From Asanoa ferruginea (GTDB lineage Bacteria > Actinomycetota > Actinomycetes > Mycobacteriales > Micromonosporaceae): a DNA stretch of 64,000 nucleotides. The stretch covers positions 1,240,001 to 1,304,000 of the forward strand of contig NZ_QUMQ01000001.1 of assembly GCF_003387075.1 (NCBI RefSeq), read 5' to 3'. A model generated the notes under the pieces. It worked only from the letters and a program-made list of their open reading frames with translations, was not told the DNA's origin and made no database searches. Numbering within the stretch: the first letter of the stretch is position 1; each line of letters begins with the position of its first letter. Positions 18,320 through 61,891 of the stretch are shown here, in pieces. The translations under genes and the position numbers were made by a program.

Positions 18320-18446
18320 CGGGCTCGGGCCGAGGTCACCGTCCGCGGCGCGACCGACCTGCGCCGCGGGCCGTGACGGCCTCGGCTTGAGACGGGCCGC
18401 CCGGGCGGGCGACCCAACCGCAACGCAAGTCCGACGTTGCGGGAGC

Positions 18447-18803
18447 GACGACCTAGACCAGAGGCCGGTCCCGGCGGCGGCCCAGGCCTGACCGCAACCC
18501 ACGACCCACGCCGCGGAAATGACGGCCCAGAGCAGAGGCCGCTCCCGGCGGCGGCCCGGGCCTGACCACAACCCACGCCACGGAAACGACGGCCCAGACC
18601 AGAGGCCGGTCCCGGCGGCGGCCCAGGCCTGACCGCAACCCACGACCCACGCCGCGGAAATGACGGCCCAGACCAGAGGCCGCTCCCGGCGGTGGCCCAG
18701 GCCTGACCACAACCCACGCCACGGGAACGACGGCCCAGACCAGAGGCCTCTCCCGGCGGCGGCCAGCCAAAGCCTGACCGCAGCCCACGACCCCCGCCGC
18801 AGC
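18447..18803. repeat. Higher-order tandem repeat, five units alternating about 74 and 67 bp
   Basis: Units are at 18447-18520 (74), 18521-18587 (67), 18588-18661 (74), 18662-18728 (67) and 18729-18803 (75). Each begins GACGGCCCAGAnCAGAGGCC or a close variant. The long units 1 and 3 differ at two positions, and the short units 2 and 4 are nearly identical, so a 141-bp dimer was duplicated. Because 141 is a multiple of three, long spurious frames cross it on the minus strand. It fills much of the 700-base gap 18320-19019, where I see no gene; the flanks at 18320-18446 and 18804-19019 hold nothing else recognisable. Confidence 0.9.
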
Positions 18804-20584: not shown

Positions 20585-21616
20585 TTACCGACCGTGTTGG
20601 CCGACCCCCACCGCGCTCACCCCCTCCCCGACCTCCGCCGGCGCCTCCGCGCGGCGGGCGACGACCCGGCGGGTGATCAGCAGCAGCACCACGGCGGTGA
20701 GCGCGAACACGGCGTTGCCCGCATAGCGGACCCCGTCGCTCGGCGCGAAGAGCAGCGTCAGCACGAAGCCCAGCCAGGCATAGGTGAGCAACGCGCCCGC
20801 CAGCAGCCCCACAAGGTGCCGGTCGGACCAGCCCGGCCGGCGGGCCAGCCAGGCGACCGCGGCCGCAGCGGCCGAGACGATCGCGACATCCAGCCAGAAC
20901 CCGAGCCAGCTCTCCGGCACCAGCGCGTGCGAGCCGGCCGTAACGAACGTCACCACACCGAGCAGCCAGGGCCGGGGCAGCCAGCCAGGCGTGCGCGGCG
21001 GTGACAGATGGGGGGAGCTCGCGGCGGCCGGATCCCGCCGTGGCAACAGGAAACCCACGATGATCAGCGCGATCGCGGTCACCGCGGCCACCACCAGTTG
21101 GTGCGGCGCCGCCAGGAAGCCTTCCTGGTCGCGGAGGTCCTTGAAGATCAGCCAGCAGCCGAGCAGATAGAACACGAACGTGACGCATAGCCCGGGCCGG
21201 CCCAGCCACGGGTCGGTGCGCCGGGCGGGGAACCACAGCTCGACGAGGGCGATCGGCACGCCGATGCTCCACACCGTGTGGCCGACCAGGAACGCGGCCG
21301 CGTTGTAGGCGCTCAACCCCAGCCACGGCACCGGTGTCACGCCGCGCTGGTCGAGCCCTTCGAACGTCGCGTTGAACAGCGACTGGTCGACCAGGCCCGC
21401 CTCGATCACCCCATAAGCGGTGGCCAGCAGGAAGATCGTCGGCCAGCCCCGGCCGGTGCGCCGCGCCAGCTCGCGGACCAGCAGCGCGCCGCAACCGTAG
21501 AGCGGGACCAGGACCGGAAGCAGCGGAAACCGTTGGACGGGGACGTTGCCCAGCAGGTATTCGCCCACCCACGGGGCGAGCACCAACAGCACGAGCACGG
21601 GCCAGAAGCGACGCAT
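20585..21616 (-). CDS. Polytopic membrane protein of unknown function
   Basis: 343 residues with about nine to ten hydrophobic segments and Trp/Leu-rich helices. No family is recognised with confidence. The ATG at 21616 follows an AT-containing stretch without a Shine-Dalgarno. The stop is 11 bases from the guaA start, so it may be cotranscribed with guaA. An upstream extension of the frame has poor content. Confidence 0.65.
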
Positions 21617-21660
21617 GTGAATAGCGTGGCGGGGGACGGTGAGGTGGGGGTGAGGGCGGA

Positions 21661-23328
21661 TTAAGAGTTCGATGAGAGGGGCAGCGTCACCGTGAACACC
21701 GCCCCGGCGACGGAGATTGTGCCGCCGTGCGTGGTCACTACCGATCGGGCGATCGCCAGGCCCAGGCCCACGCCGCCGCCCGGCCCGCGCGCCGGGTCGC
21801 CCCGGAAGAAGCGCTCGAAGACGGCGTCCGTCAGATCGGCCGGCACACCCGGACCCTCGTCGGCCACGGTCAGCCGCGCGCCGGAGTCCGATCGGGACAC
21901 CTCGACCGTCACCGCTCCCGCGCCGTGCCGCAGCGCATTGTCGACCAGAATCCACACCAGCCGCCGCAGCGCGTCCGGATCACCGGCCACCACCACCCGG
22001 GCGGCCGGATCACCGACCACCACCGCCGAGACGGCCGGCTCACTGCCCACCACCGCCGAGGCGGCCGGCTGACTGCCCACCACAACCCGGGGATCGCGAT
22101 CACCGGCCACCACCGCCGAAGCGCTCGGATCACTGCCCTCCGAAGCCCGGGCATCCCGATCACCGGCCACCACCGCCGAAGCGGCCGGATCACCGCCTTC
22201 CAAAGCCCGGGCATCCCGATCACCGGCCACCACCGCCGAAGCGGCAGGATCACCGCCCTCCAAAACCCGGGCATCCCGATCGCCGGCCACCACCACGGAG
22301 GCGCCGGAGGACGACGCCGACGCCTGACGGCATACCGACGTGGCCACCTCGAGGAGATCCACGGGAGAGGTCGACAGCGCCACGCCGCCGTCTGAGCGGG
22401 CCAGCAGCAGGAGGTCGTCGAGCAGGCGGGCCATGCGCGCGCTCTCGGCCACCAGGTCGTCGAGTGCCGCTTCGCGGTCGTCGGGGCGGGCCGCCGGGTG
22501 TGTCCGCAGGAAGCCCACGTTGCCGCGAATCGTGGTCAACGGCGTGCGCAACTCGTGCGACGCGTCCGCCGTGAAGCGGCGCTGCGCGGAAAGAGCCGAC
22601 TCCATCCGCCGGTACGCCGATTCGAGCCGGCCCATCATCGTGTTGAAGCTGGTCGTCAGCCGGCCCAGGTCGTCGCGTTGCCGTACCGCCGGCAGCCGCC
22701 GGGTCAGGTCCTCCGAGCCGCCCACCGAGTCGGCCAGCGAAGCCAGCACCCGCAGTGGCCGCAGGGCCCGGCCGACCGCGAACCAGGTCGCCGCGAACGC
22801 CGCCACCAGGCCGAGGAATCCCACGGCCGCCAGTACGACGATCATCCCGCGGCTCTGCACCTGGATCGCCCGGATCGGCTGGGCCGCGACGACGTAGCCG
22901 GCGCGCCCGAGATCCGGGCGCGACCAGGGCACGACCCGGACCCGGGTGTCGACCCCGGACACCGGCACGGTGGCCACGACGAACCCGGCCCGGGACGCCG
23001 CCGCCAACAACGTAGGCGGCACACCCGGCGGCCCCGCGCCGATGTGGCCGGTCGAAGAGAGCACCGCTCCCGCGCCGTCGAGCACCACCACGACCGCTTC
23101 GCCGGTCGCCACCGCGTCGACCGGAGTCAACGGCGGGCGGGCCACGAGCGCGTCGCCGGGTAGCTCGGCGAGCCCGGACACCGCCGCGCTGGCCCGCTCG
23201 GCCAACAGCTGATCCTGGTCCTCGGCGAAACCGTAGGAGAGCAGAAGATAGATCAGCACGGCGACCACCGTGTAGATCACGGCGACTACCGCGACGCCGA
23301 ACAGGGTGACCCGGGCCCGGATCGACAT
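21661..23328 (-). CDS. HAMP-type sensor histidine kinase with internal repeat expansion
   Basis: 555 residues. Two membrane helices (about 8-30 and 160-182) flank an extracytoplasmic sensor region. HAMP follows, then the H-box with phospho-acceptor His near 258 ([15 protein letters not shown]), and the ATPase N-box (VDNALRHG) near 463, G1 (DEGPGVP) and G2 ([10 protein letters not shown]). The H-to-N distance is about 205 residues where about 105-110 is usual. The excess is a run of near-identical 20- and 10-residue units ([20 protein letters not shown]) at about 336-446. The ATG overlaps the response-regulator stop by one base. The pair resembles MprB/MprA-type envelope systems. Confidence 0.9.
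21991..22320. repeat. In-frame minisatellite inside the kinase gene (60-bp and 30-bp units)
   Basis: Four 60-bp units at 22081-22320 (about 20 residues each) are followed in the coding direction by 30-bp units at 22051-22080, 22021-22050 and a diverged one at about 21991-22020. All keep frame. The units look like copies of the strand that precedes the N-box ([10 protein letters not shown]), so the tract seems to have grown by duplicating that element. Confidence 0.9.
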
Positions 23329-24008
23329 CAGGCGTCGCTTCGCAGCACGTAGCCCACGCCCCGCACGGTCTGCACCAGCCGCGGCTCGCCGCCGGCCTCC
23401 AGCTTGGCCCGCAGATATCCGATGTAGACGTCGACGACGTTGCTGGCCACCGGTTCGCCGCCCCACACCGCGGTCAACAGGTGGGGCCGGCTGAACACCT
23501 GCCGCGGATGCCGCGCGAGGTGCGCAAGCAGGTCGAACTCCAGGGCGGTCAGCGCGATCGACCGCGCGCCGCGGCGCACCTCGCGGGTCGCCGGGTCGAC
23601 CACCAGGTCGGCGAAGCGCAGCACGCCGGCCGGCCCGGACGCCGGCGCCCGGCGGAGCAGCGCCCGCACCCGGGCCAGCAACTCCTCGGGCGCGAACGGC
23701 TTGACCAGGTAGTCGTCGGCGCCGGCGTCGAGCCCGTCGACCCGGTCGGCGGTCGCGTCCCGGGCGGTCAGCATCAGCACCAACGCGGTGCCGCCGGACG
23801 CCCGCAGCGCCCGGCAGACGCCGAAGCCGTCGAGCCCGGGCAGGTTGACGTCGAGCACCACGAGGTCGGGCGCGTCGCGGATCGCCGCCGCCAGCCCGGA
23901 CGGTCCGTCGGCGGCCAGCACAACCGGATAACCCGCGTATTCCAGCGATCGCCGCAGCGCGGCGGCGACCCGCGCATCGTCTTCGACCACCAGCACCCGC
24001 GCCGCCAT
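23328..24008 (-). CDS. OmpR/PhoB-family response regulator
   Basis: 226 residues: a receiver domain with acidic pair DD near 11, phospho-acceptor in VVLDVNLPG near 51 and conserved Lys in LVKPFAPEE near 101, then a winged-helix DNA-binding domain ending TVRGVGYVLR. The ATG at 24008 is chosen as the start of a standard receiver; a longer frame adds a Cys/Gly-rich stretch that is not typical. The next gene, its kinase, starts within its stop codon. An AT-rich dyad lies 80-110 bases upstream and may be its operator. Confidence 0.92.
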   Translation of the reverse strand: MAARVLVVEDDARVAAALRRSLEYAGYPVVLAADGPSGLAAAIRDAPDLVVLDVNLPGLDGFGVCRALRASGGTALVLMLTARDATADRVDGLDAGADDYLVKPFAPEELLARVRALLRRAPASGPAGVLRFADLVVDPATREVRRGARSIALTALEFDLLAHLARHPRQVFSRPHLLTAVWGGEPVASNVVDVYIGYLRAKLEAGGEPRLVQTVRGVGYVLRSDA

Positions 24009-24085
24009 GGCCGGCACGCTAGCGCAGCACCGCCCACCACCGCAGGACTGCTCACCACCGCAGGACCGCAAGCAAGAAGGGCAAT

Positions 24086-24121
24086 ACATGTTCTTTCATG
24101 TACGCACGTAAAAGAACATGT
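24086..24121. promoter_or_regulatory. AT-rich 11-bp inverted repeat
   Basis: ACATGTTCTTT at 24086-24096 pairs perfectly with AAAGAACATGT at 24111-24121 around a 14-base spacer that itself contains TACG-CA-CGTA. It lies between the GMC oxidoreductase stop and the response-regulator start, both on the minus strand. There is no U-tract. It could be an operator for the two-component operon or a 3' hairpin of the oxidoreductase mRNA. Confidence 0.65.
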
Positions 24122-54652: not shown

Positions 54653-54934
54653 ATGGACGGTGACCTGCGGGTTGATCCCGACCTGTTGCGCGACCGGGCG
54701 GCCGAGTTGTCGCTGGTGGCCCGCGCGCTGGCGACGGGTGGGTTCGGGCTGGGCGTCGACGCGCCGGACTGGTCGGCCGGGGTGGCCCTGGCCGCCCTGG
54801 CGTCGACGGTGTCGTCAACGCTGGGCTCTGCGGCGGCGCGGGTGGCCCACTCGGGTGACCTGCTGCGTTCGGCGGCCGCCGGCTACGAAGACGCCGACCG
54901 ACGGGCCGCGGTCCGCCTACACCGGGTCGGGTGA
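54653..54934 (+). CDS. EspC/WXG-like small secretion-associated protein
   Basis: 93 residues, predicted all-helical, no signal peptide. The N-terminus (LRVDPDLLRDRAAELS) and the Trp-containing turn (DWSAGV) fit the EspC-type ESX family; helices would pair as a hairpin. The ATG at 54653 has GGGAGG upstream. The next open frame starts 7 bases after its stop and the WXG/DUF1023 hydrolase beyond that, so it is probably the secretion partner of the cassette. No ESX core gene is in the window. Confidence 0.7.
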   Translation: MDGDLRVDPDLLRDRAAELSLVARALATGGFGLGVDAPDWSAGVALAALASTVSSTLGSAAARVAHSGDLLRSAAAGYEDADRRAAVRLHRVG

Positions 54935-54940
54935 CCCGCC

Positions 54941-55324
54941 ATGGTGACGCCCTCGCACCCGGACCGCTCGGCTGACCGCCGTTCGGTCACCGATCTCGGC
55001 TTGGCGGGGCCCTCGCACCCGAACCGGCCGGGTGACCGGCATGCGGTGACCGACCTTCGCTTGGCGGCGCCCTCACACCCGAACCGGCCGGGTGACCGGC
55101 ATGCGGTGACCGACCTCCGCTTCGCGGCGCCCTCACACCCGAACCGGCCGGGTGACCGGCATGCGGTGACCGACCTCCGCTTCGCGGCGCCCTCACACCC
55201 GAACCGGCCGGGTGACCGGCATGCGGTGACCGACCTTCGCTTGGCGGGGTCATCGGAGCCGCGCTGGTCGACTGACCTGCCTTCGGTGGCCGACCTCCGC
55301 TGGCCCGGTGAGCTCTCGTGGTGA
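54941..55324 (+). CDS. 20-residue-repeat protein between EspC-like gene and hydrolase
   Basis: 127 residues made almost wholly of six 20-residue units (RPGDRHAVTDLRFAAPSHPN and variants). Support for coding: ATG 7 bases after the previous stop, a 7-base overlap with the next start, GC-rich third positions, and most unit-to-unit differences at third positions or conservative. Against it: the 60-bp unit keeps every frame open, and no clear ribosome site is seen. The sequence is Pro/Arg/His-rich and probably disordered. Function is unknown. Confidence 0.5.
   Translation: MVTPSHPDRSADRRSVTDLGLAGPSHPNRPGDRHAVTDLRLAAPSHPNRPGDRHAVTDLRFAAPSHPNRPGDRHAVTDLRFAAPSHPNRPGDRHAVTDLRLAGSSEPRWSTDLPSVADLRWPGELSW
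54951..55310. repeat. 60-bp tandem repeat, six units
   Basis: Exact 60-base period from about 54951 to 55310. Units covering 55081-55140 and 55141-55200 are identical; the first and last units are diverged. Each contains GGTGACCGGC and GGTGACCGAC words. It is in frame with the short ORF described above. Confidence 0.95.
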
Positions 55325-60022: not shown

Positions 60023-61891
60023 ATGAGCCGACCCACCCCTCCCGAGCCCGACGATTCGGGAGGCGGCGAGCGCACGCCCGATCCGACCCAGGCCTATCCG
60101 CCTCCGCCACCCTTCCCGGCGACGGAAGCGGCACCGCCGCGGCCGGCCACCGAGGCGAGCCCGACCGAGCCCTTGAGCCCGGCCGCGCCGCCGGCCAGCT
60201 ATGCGCCACCCGCTCCGTCGGCTCCACCGGTGACCTCGGCACCCCCGGCGCCCACGGCCCCGCCGGTCAACCTAGCGCCACCGATTCCCGCGGCCCCGGT
60301 GGTCAGCTCAGCCCCGCCGGCTAGCTACGTGCCCCCGGTCAGCTCCGCGCCGCCAGTCAGCTCGGCACCGCCGGCCAGTTCGACGCCGCCGCCCAGCTCG
60401 ACGCCCCCGGTCAGCTCCGCGCCACCGGCCAGCTACCCGCCCCCGGTCAGCTCGACGCCGCCGGCCAGCTCCGCACCCCCGGCCAGCTACGGGCCGCCAG
60501 TCAGCTCGACACCGCCGGCCAGCTACGCGCCGCCGGTCAGCTCCGCGCCACCGGCCAGCTACGCGCCGCCAGTTAGCTCGGCACCGCCGGCCAGCTCGAC
60601 GCCCCCGGTCAGCTCCGCGCCGCCCGCCAGCTACCCGCCCCCGGTGAGCTCGACGCCCGCGGCCAGCTACCCGCCGCCCGCCAGCGGGCCGACCGAGCCC
60701 TTCACCGTCGCCCCGCCGAGCGTCCCGGCGCCGGCACCCGGCGCCCCGCTGTGGCCGGCCGCGACCCCGCCGGTGACCGCACCGGCCGCCGACAGCGGCC
60801 CGGACCAGACCGCGGCCCTCCCATCGGTCACCCCGGGCCCGGCGCAGACCGCTCCGCTGCCGCCACCCACCTCGGCGCCAACCGCGCCCCCGGCGGCATC
60901 GGCACCGACCACCCCGCTGTCCCCGGCGACCCCGGGCCGCGGCGGCACGCCGACGTTCACCCCGGGCTCAGCCCCGGTCTACCCCAGCGCGCCGCCGCCG
61001 ACCGGCAGCCCGGTCGGCTACCCGGCGAGCGCCCCGCCCGGCTACTCCATCGACACCCCGCCGGGCGGCGACCGGGCCTACCCGAAGACCTCGGCGCTGC
61101 CACCGGGCGAGGGCGGCCCCGCGGACCCTTACAACCCCTACGCGCGCCCGCCGGGCACCGCGCCGGACGCACCGTTCGCTCCCCCGGACCCGGCCCAGCC
61201 GACCAGCCCCTACGCGTCCGGTGCGCCGAGCAACCCCTACGCGCCACCGCCGGCCAACCCCTACTCGGCACCGCCGATGCAGGCTGGGTCCTACCCCTAC
61301 CCACCCCAGAACGCCGGCGGTGCGCCGCCGCCCTACGGCCCCTACAACGCGGCCCCGGCCTATGACCAGCCGGCCAAGCGCCGCCGTGGCAACGGCTGGA
61401 TCATCGCGATCGTCGTCGTTCTCGCGGTGCTCTTCTGCGGTGGCGCCGCCACCGCCGGTGTGCTGCTGATCGCCAACCGCGACGACAACCCGGTCGTGAC
61501 CGAGCCCGACGTGCCGAGTTTCCCCGACCCGGTCGACCCGGCGCCGACGTTCGACGTGCCGGACTCGCCCGACGACCCCTCGACCGCCCTGCCGGGCCTG
61601 CCGGGGGTCGCTGGGAAGGCCGTCGTCTACGAGGTCACCGGCTCGGGGCGGGCTGACATCAACTACGTCGACGATCTCGCGGGCGAGCCACGCGAGCTCA
61701 AGAACCAGAAGCTGCCCTGGAAGCACGAGTTCACCAGCACCGAGGGCTCGCTGCTGCTGACCTTGAGCGCGACCAGCAGCAGCGGCGACAACGACGGGAT
61801 CGGGTGCCGGATCACGGTCGACGGCAAGGAGTCGGCCGCCAACGAAGGCAGCATCATCGGCGCCTTCTGCATCGGCACGATTTTCGACTAG
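60023..61891 (+). CDS. Pro-rich membrane protein with MmpS-like C-terminal domain
   Basis: 622 residues. A very long Pro/Ser/Ala-rich cytoplasmic part (1-450) with SSAPPASYxPPV-type repeats is followed by a single membrane helix (WIIAIVVVLAVLFCGGAATAG, about 455-478) and a small extracytoplasmic beta domain (VVYEVTGSGRADINYVDD, about 535-622) resembling MmpS transport accessory proteins. The ATG at 60023 has GGAG six bases upstream. It is convergent with a DrrAB-type pair. No MmpL gene is nearby. Confidence 0.8.
   Translation: MSRPTPPEPDDSGGGERTPDPTQAYPPPPPFPATEAAPPRPATEASPTEPLSPAAPPASYAPPAPSAPPVTSAPPAPTAPPVNLAPPIPAAPVVSSAPPASYVPPVSSAPPVSSAPPASSTPPPSSTPPVSSAPPASYPPPVSSTPPASSAPPASYGPPVSSTPPASYAPPVSSAPPASYAPPVSSAPPASSTPPVSSAPPASYPPPVSSTPAASYPPPASGPTEPFTVAPPSVPAPAPGAPLWPAATPPVTAPAADSGPDQTAALPSVTPGPAQTAPLPPPTSAPTAPPAASAPTTPLSPATPGRGGTPTFTPGSAPVYPSAPPPTGSPVGYPASAPPGYSIDTPPGGDRAYPKTSALPPGEGGPADPYNPYARPPGTAPDAPFAPPDPAQPTSPYASGAPSNPYAPPPANPYSAPPMQAGSYPYPPQNAGGAPPPYGPYNAAPAYDQPAKRRRGNGWIIAIVVVLAVLFCGGAATAGVLLIANRDDNPVVTEPDVPSFPDPVDPAPTFDVPDSPDDPSTALPGLPGVAGKAVVYEVTGSGRADINYVDDLAGEPRELKNQKLPWKHEFTSTEGSLLLTLSATSSSGDNDGIGCRITVDGKESAANEGSIIGAFCIGTIFD
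60305..60690. repeat. Proline-rich coding repeat
   Basis: About 20 copies of an 18-bp core coding (V/A)S(S/Y)xPP, arranged in longer SSAPPASYAPPV blocks. Copies use different synonymous codons, so the array is old or under protein-level selection. Confidence 0.8.

Follow-up and report, generated by a model that had tools for sequence, protein, structure and literature searches.

An in-frame minisatellite in a sensor histidine kinase gene of Asanoa ferruginea, probably tolerated in a hairpin turn of the ATP-binding domain

Why does one sensor histidine kinase of Asanoa ferruginea contain a long array of repeated residues between its H-box and N-box, and does this array serve the kinase in any way? 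The array was found in a stretch of 64,000 nucleotides (positions 1,240,001 to 1,304,000 of contig NZ_QUMQ01000001.1), which is called the window here. Considering its sequence, its distribution, the selection acting on the gene and the predicted structure, we assume, with a probability of about 0.72, that it is a lineage-specific in-frame minisatellite, which a hairpin turn can accommodate and whose reading frame is maintained by selection on the kinase. Other explanations, including a device for tuning of signalling, a new functional module and an artefact, are weighed below where the evidence bears on them.

The kinase gene and its partner regulator

The gene that contains the array, its domains and motifs, and the neighbouring regulator gene are as follows (coordinates in the window; aa, residues of the kinase).

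21661..23328, minus strand: sensor histidine kinase of 555 aa, with N-terminal sensor part, HAMP, HisKA and HATPase_c
aa 185-236: HAMP domain (Pfam)
22384..22587, minus strand: HisKA domain, aa 248-315 (Pfam)
21673..21984, minus strand: HATPase_c domain, aa 449-552 (Pfam)
22537..22557, minus strand: HELRTPL motif, aa 258-264
21925..21945, minus strand: VDNALRH motif, aa 462-468
23328..24089, minus strand: response regulator, partner of the kinase

The scores of the HAMP, HisKA and HATPase_c domains (39.0, 63.6 and 87.8 bits, respectively) are all above the curated Pfam cut-offs (25, 26.9 and 26.4), and the gene was recognised as a HisKA/HATPase_c sensor histidine kinase by the domain test. Further kinase motifs are located at positions 489 (ADEGPG), 503 (VFERFF) and 519 (GVGLGLAI). 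Going by the box names and consensus familiar to us, we take HELRTPL to be the H-box and VDNALRH to be the N-box, and the other three motifs are presumably the G1, F and G2 boxes, in that order; all five are present in the kinase. The orthologue profile matches 62 distinct sequences of solved structures at E ≤ 1e-10 (the best is 4i5s, E 7.3e-41), and histidine kinase structures dominate the 50 Foldseek matches listed.

The best matches of the partner regulator are MtrA and PhoB-type NCBIfam models, with scores below every curated cut-off among the 25 rows listed. Its stop codon TGA overlaps the ATG of the kinase gene by one base, and because of this common base the two genes are, judging from the sequence, probably translationally coupled. 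The regulator adjoins the kinase in the host and also in two other genomes of the genus, G002 and G003; its match in G003 (L147, G003:C2:1182241-1182903) is reported with one internal TGA. No Rfam match at gathering thresholds was found anywhere in the window, and scans of 21600-22500 found neither promoter nor terminator.

Organization of the repeat array

The array is composed of an insert of ten units and the original copy from which they were derived.

21997..22296, minus strand: insert of 100 residues (aa 345-444), ten 30-bp units in frame, absent in the orthologues
22057..22296, minus strand: units 1-8, forming four 60-bp (20-residue) pairs
21997..22056, minus strand: units 9 and 10, unpaired, 30 bp each
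21967..21996, minus strand: unit 11, the original copy, ten residues before the N-box, aa 445-454

All ten units of the insert are diverged in-frame copies of the ten codons preceding the N-box. Units 3 and 5 have the same DNA, and no other pair among the eleven units is identical. The 60-bp pairs share 55 of 60 bases between the first and the second, 55 between the second and the third, and 49 between the third and the fourth. Tandem Repeats Finder (TRF) reported the array with a period of 30 (21955-22308, 11.7 copies, 67% match, 2% indels, score 238) and with a period of 60 (21974-22308, 5.6 copies, 82% match, 0% indels, score 397). Since the best score among 500 codon-shuffled versions of the segment was 89, the array is far beyond chance. 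With at least four head-to-tail units within one ORF and a period that is a multiple of three, it is an in-frame minisatellite, for which the limits of 10–200 nt per unit were taken as given in the accessible part of PMC6749651. The units still begin with VV and carry a central acidic residue, as is expected from recent copying, but also from retention of a structural repeat.

The original prediction, made from the letters alone, had taken the extra residues for copies of the strand before the N-box, whose number could change without a frameshift, and both points were confirmed: unit 11 is the original of ten diverged copies, and units of 30 bp in an in-frame array preserve the frame when whole units are gained or lost. 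An in-frame expansion between the H-box (aa 258) and the N-box (aa 462) was also rightly recognised, and the units of 20 and 10 residues correspond to the pairs and the single units listed above. Its size has to be corrected from about 95 to 100 residues, that is ten units of ten relative to the orthologues, and the boundaries proposed for it, 21991-22320, overshoot the actual ones slightly.

A dispersed element was considered as the source and rejected, as none was seen in searches of the own genome with the array DNA (40 of 403 first-look candidates scored) and the repeat peptide. Apart from itself, the array DNA matched two short stretches (31 and 25 bp, E 7.4e-4), and the peptide matched 13 places at E ≤ 1, two of them within the array and the other 11 at E ≥ 0.097. 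An assembly or sequencing artefact is another conceivable source, tandem repeats being described as a known cause of assembly error in the accessible part of PMC6868369. It is hardly credible here: the genome is one contig of 9,071,909 bases (9.07 Mb) with 100% completeness and 1.33% contamination, the frame is intact, and false duplication of a read would not give this pattern, because just two of the eleven units are identical.

Distribution of the insert in relatives

The kinase has an orthologue in two of the five other genomes of the genus, namely G002 and G003, whose kinases are the same proteins as those of Asanoa iriomotensis and Asanoa ishikariensis, respectively. Both orthologues (80% identity) lack exactly the 100 residues, while the flanks align to the residue; the distance from H-box to G1-box is 230 residues in the host kinase versus 130 and 131 in the orthologues. 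Kinase and regulator are missing from three of the six genus genomes at thresholds of E 1e-60 and 1e-70. When the search was extended to 300 genomes of the family, with four candidates scored per genome, a match of the kinase at E ≤ 1e-60 was found in 10 genomes including the own one, and the insert is absent in all seven matching homologues outside the genus. For a wider alignment 35 rows were offered, among which 19 passed the score filter and 17 are distinct, the proteins L009 and L036 being the same, as are L010 and L037. The insert is absent in all 19 filtered rows, which include the seven homologues and the Asanoa rows. HK853, CovS/VicK and CpxA have the same HAMP-HisKA-HATPase_c domain set as this kinase; the absence of a 100-residue insert at this place is a result for the 19 aligned relatives, not for each solved structure. 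Moreover, a query of array plus N-box against 354 family genomes at E 1e-7 found the array in the own genome alone; a much diverged array could escape this search, because of that threshold and the twelve candidates scored per genome.

The own genome has 101 ATPase-domain matches, some of which are not kinases, and 100 are covered by the DNA examined. An array with a TRF score of at least 100 lies between H-box and ATPase domain in one of these 100, which is this kinase, and such a lone case fits a chance event better than a device shared among kinases. Furthermore, the H-box expression recognised 25 kinases, 23 of which have a distance of 92-117 residues from H-box to ATPase domain; this distance is 191 residues in the present kinase. 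The kinase G000:C1:4441381, with a distance of 200 aa, has no array there at a TRF score of 100. At the same linker of the G002 kinase there is a weak two-copy 21-bp repeat (L142:15680-15731, scores 50 and 59), which was considered as a hot spot and not taken as one, since 55 of the 500 codon-shuffled versions mentioned above reach a score of 50.

Selection on the kinase and on the copies

On the host branch, the kinase outside the insert has accumulated 81 synonymous and 48 non-synonymous changes, giving a pN/pS of 0.25 (54 three-state sites were set aside in the branch estimates). The values for the sister branches are 0.25 (G002) and 0.42 (G003), and those for the ATPase part alone are 0.32 in the host versus 0.29 in G002 and 0.41 in G003. 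This comparison of sequences shows a kinase body under constraint on the host branch with no sign of release, because the host value equals that of G002 and is lower than that of G003.

Within the array, the four 60-bp pairs give a pS of 0.144 and a pN of 0.137, from 15 synonymous and 35 non-synonymous differences, which are small counts summed over non-independent pairs. For the first three pairs, pS is 0.115 and pN is 0.094; the first two pairs differ by three synonymous and two non-synonymous changes (pS 0.170, pN 0.047). Taken together, the pairs indicate no clear amino-acid constraint on the copies, with room for some constraint, as the counts are small and pN is below pS in the first two pairs. 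Strongly relaxed selection on new repeat copies, together with positive selection, is reported as general in the accessible part of PMC5120217.

Predicted structure of the insert

The AlphaFold2 model of the kinase, made with ten aligned homologues, is of moderate quality (mean pLDDT 68.8, pTM 0.42). Strands are modelled at aa 345-348 in unit 1 and at aa 446-449 in the original copy; residues 349-442 are below pLDDT 50 with one residue called strand, and the mean pLDDT per block is 25–34 across aa 351-440. In the model, unit 11 makes up an ATPase-domain strand and the beginning of the N-box helix. In the model of the orthologue L036 (nine aligned sequences), strands 333-336 and 340-343 have three residues between them. 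Because these two strands correspond to the host strands in unit 1 and in the original copy, the array looks like a low-confidence loop that fills the turn of an apparent hairpin, the first one in the ATPase domain. According to the model, unit 1 may have assumed the part of the first strand. As the insert has no homologues in the alignment, its low pLDDT does not prove disorder.

Such a loop might be a new functional module, for instance a beta-rich or disordered docking segment, which would regulate the kinase at a fixed length by folding or by binding of a partner. The repetition of a VVVAGD-like strand motif, the frame that is open throughout, the constraint on the kinase and the excess of synonymous over non-synonymous differences in the first two pairs are consistent with this idea. 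However, the very low pLDDT with one strand residue, the similar pN and pS across all four pairs and the presence of the array in one of 354 family genomes argue against it, and we give it little credence.

Repeat survey of the host genome

For comparison, tandem repeats were surveyed in 84 stretches around ATPase-domain genes plus the window, with a total of 1,739,000 bases (overlaps counted), which is about one fifth of the genome and a non-random sample. The 92 merged arrays with a TRF score of at least 100 were reduced to 55 by requiring a best period of at least 20 and at least 2.5 copies and by removing the duplicates in four overlapping stretch pairs. One third of the periods would be expected to be divisible by three, but this holds for 44 of the 55 sampled arrays (binomial p 1.6e-12), so that arrays that keep the frame seem to be usual in this genome. 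We infer that minisatellites arise often here and that, within genes, those keeping the frame survive. In this sample, the kinase array comes 21st when ordered by score and 38th of the 55 when ordered by percent match, which means that it is less pure than most.

Length tuning and known systems

The function that had been proposed for the array at the outset was that of a possible phase-tuning device for signalling. As a contingency locus, it would often change its number of units by recombination between the 60-bp pairs, and the length of the loop would determine how far the ATPase domain reaches or how strong it is, resulting in graded signalling across the population. Inside the array there are an exact repeat of 43 bp at a spacing of 60 bp and exact repeats of 27 bp at 60 and 120 bp, and the former makes steps of 60 bp plausible. 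There are also precedents in other proteins. MutL, for one, has the GHKL ATPase fold and superfamily in common with histidine kinases. In mutL of Salmonella and E. coli, according to the accessible part of PMC2955026, three 6-bp units lie in the lid of the ATP pocket, and their copy number decides allele function, altered numbers resulting in defective alleles. Like the kinase array, this is an in-frame repeat inside an ATP-binding domain, but the units of mutL are of 6 bp and located in the ATP lid, whereas the kinase has ten 30-bp units in the first hairpin and a constrained gene body. The repeats of E. coli tolA contract in frame at 6.9e-5 in a RecA-dependent manner, 8-16 units are found across 234 isolates, function depends on the number of units, and a changed repeat number changes the phenotype (PMC3477136, accessible part). 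The tolA repeats and the kinase array are both coding repeats that keep the frame and are confined to a single segment of a protein conserved elsewhere. The former lie in a long helical domain, the latter in what is modelled as a hairpin of the ATPase domain; for tolA both the number of copies and the phenotype were determined, whereas the kinase array is known from one genome sequence.

Tuning of this kind is unlikely to explain the array. Most of the sampled arrays are purer than this one, and the trait is not conserved, as both sister-species copies lack the array. In addition, the model places the loop in the ATPase domain's first hairpin, outside what we take to be the ATP lid. We also doubt strongly that recombination resizes this loop in steps of 10 or 20 residues fast enough to supply variants of graded signalling within a population; if it did, the array would be a heritable rheostat made from the kinase's own strand. 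The tuning function was not supported: the array is impure, its copies are without clear constraint, the loop is of low confidence, and many of the sampled arrays have a period divisible by three. For these reasons, no special function is needed to explain the array.

In prokaryotes, coding satellites are found in genes of many bacteria including actinobacteria, their longer units being mostly multiples of three, and S. coelicolor has 4.2 satellites per Mb by the definition used there (PMC6749651, accessible part). The kinase array resembles these coding satellites in having tandem units inside a gene, and no histidine kinase case is named among them in the part of that source available to us. 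Indels in the histidine kinase gene covS, many of them inactivating, are ascribed partly to slipped-strand mispairing in the accessible part of PMC4072638, which is a related idea, different from the kinase array. Among the literature matches listed, from a search with subscription journals mostly outside it, none reported a tandem array at the matching place in a histidine kinase. The array is of a known kind, the coding minisatellite, in an unusual place, the ATPase-domain hairpin of a sensor kinase.

A possible course of array formation

The lineage-specific minisatellite that we prefer could have come into being when ten codons of a strand of the ATP-binding domain were duplicated head to tail, after which the units would have diverged and the 60-bp pairs of units would have been re-amplified by slippage or unequal recombination. 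The similarity between pairs is highest at the end most distant from the parent copy, so that later growth probably occurred on the far side. The product would be a loop some 100 residues long, modelled at the turn that joins the first and second strands of the ATPase domain, with a sequence close to neutral and with an effect on signalling, if any, that is most likely small. Probable exposure of the turn and a presumably undisturbed catalytic core would explain why it is tolerated, and selection for an in-frame ATPase domain downstream would explain why the period is still a multiple of three. Such a locus offers a natural experiment, in which a conserved kinase is present with and without a 100-residue loop within one genus and the parent strand is still recognisable. 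It shows where the ATPase domain may tolerate length, and it lets tuning by repeat length be tested. If it is neutral only, it is a further case of minisatellite growth filtered by the reading frame.

Other minisatellites in the window and the genome

Several other repeats were observed during this work. A minisatellite with periods of 67, 74 and 141 adjoins guaA at 18439-18800. At the matching intergenic spot of G002 (L142:18935-19133) there is a different 45/90-bp array, with matches of at most 12 bp to the host array, and TRF found no array at this spot in G003. It is possible that the spot is a hot spot of independent minisatellite birth. At 54941-55324 on the plus strand, an ORF of 127 residues consists almost entirely of 20-residue repeats (PSHPNRPGDRHAVTDLRLAA-like); it begins just past the end of an ORF at 54934 and overlaps the start of the next one (55318), which encodes an alpha/beta hydrolase domain. 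This candidate ORF has no Pfam match and is present in one of the six genus genomes, its own. The array underlying it (54948-55301) was dropped from the survey because its best-scoring period is 180 with 2.0 copies. Moreover, a coding 18/72-bp array at 60304-60685 on the plus strand gives a Ser/Pro-rich stretch in an ORF of 695 residues with a Mycobact_memb domain near the C-terminus. Outside the window, a 1.9-kb array at L061:11302-13216 has 6.9 copies of 276-bp units within an ORF of 1504 residues with an ATPase domain, and presumably resembles a chain of HAMP domains.
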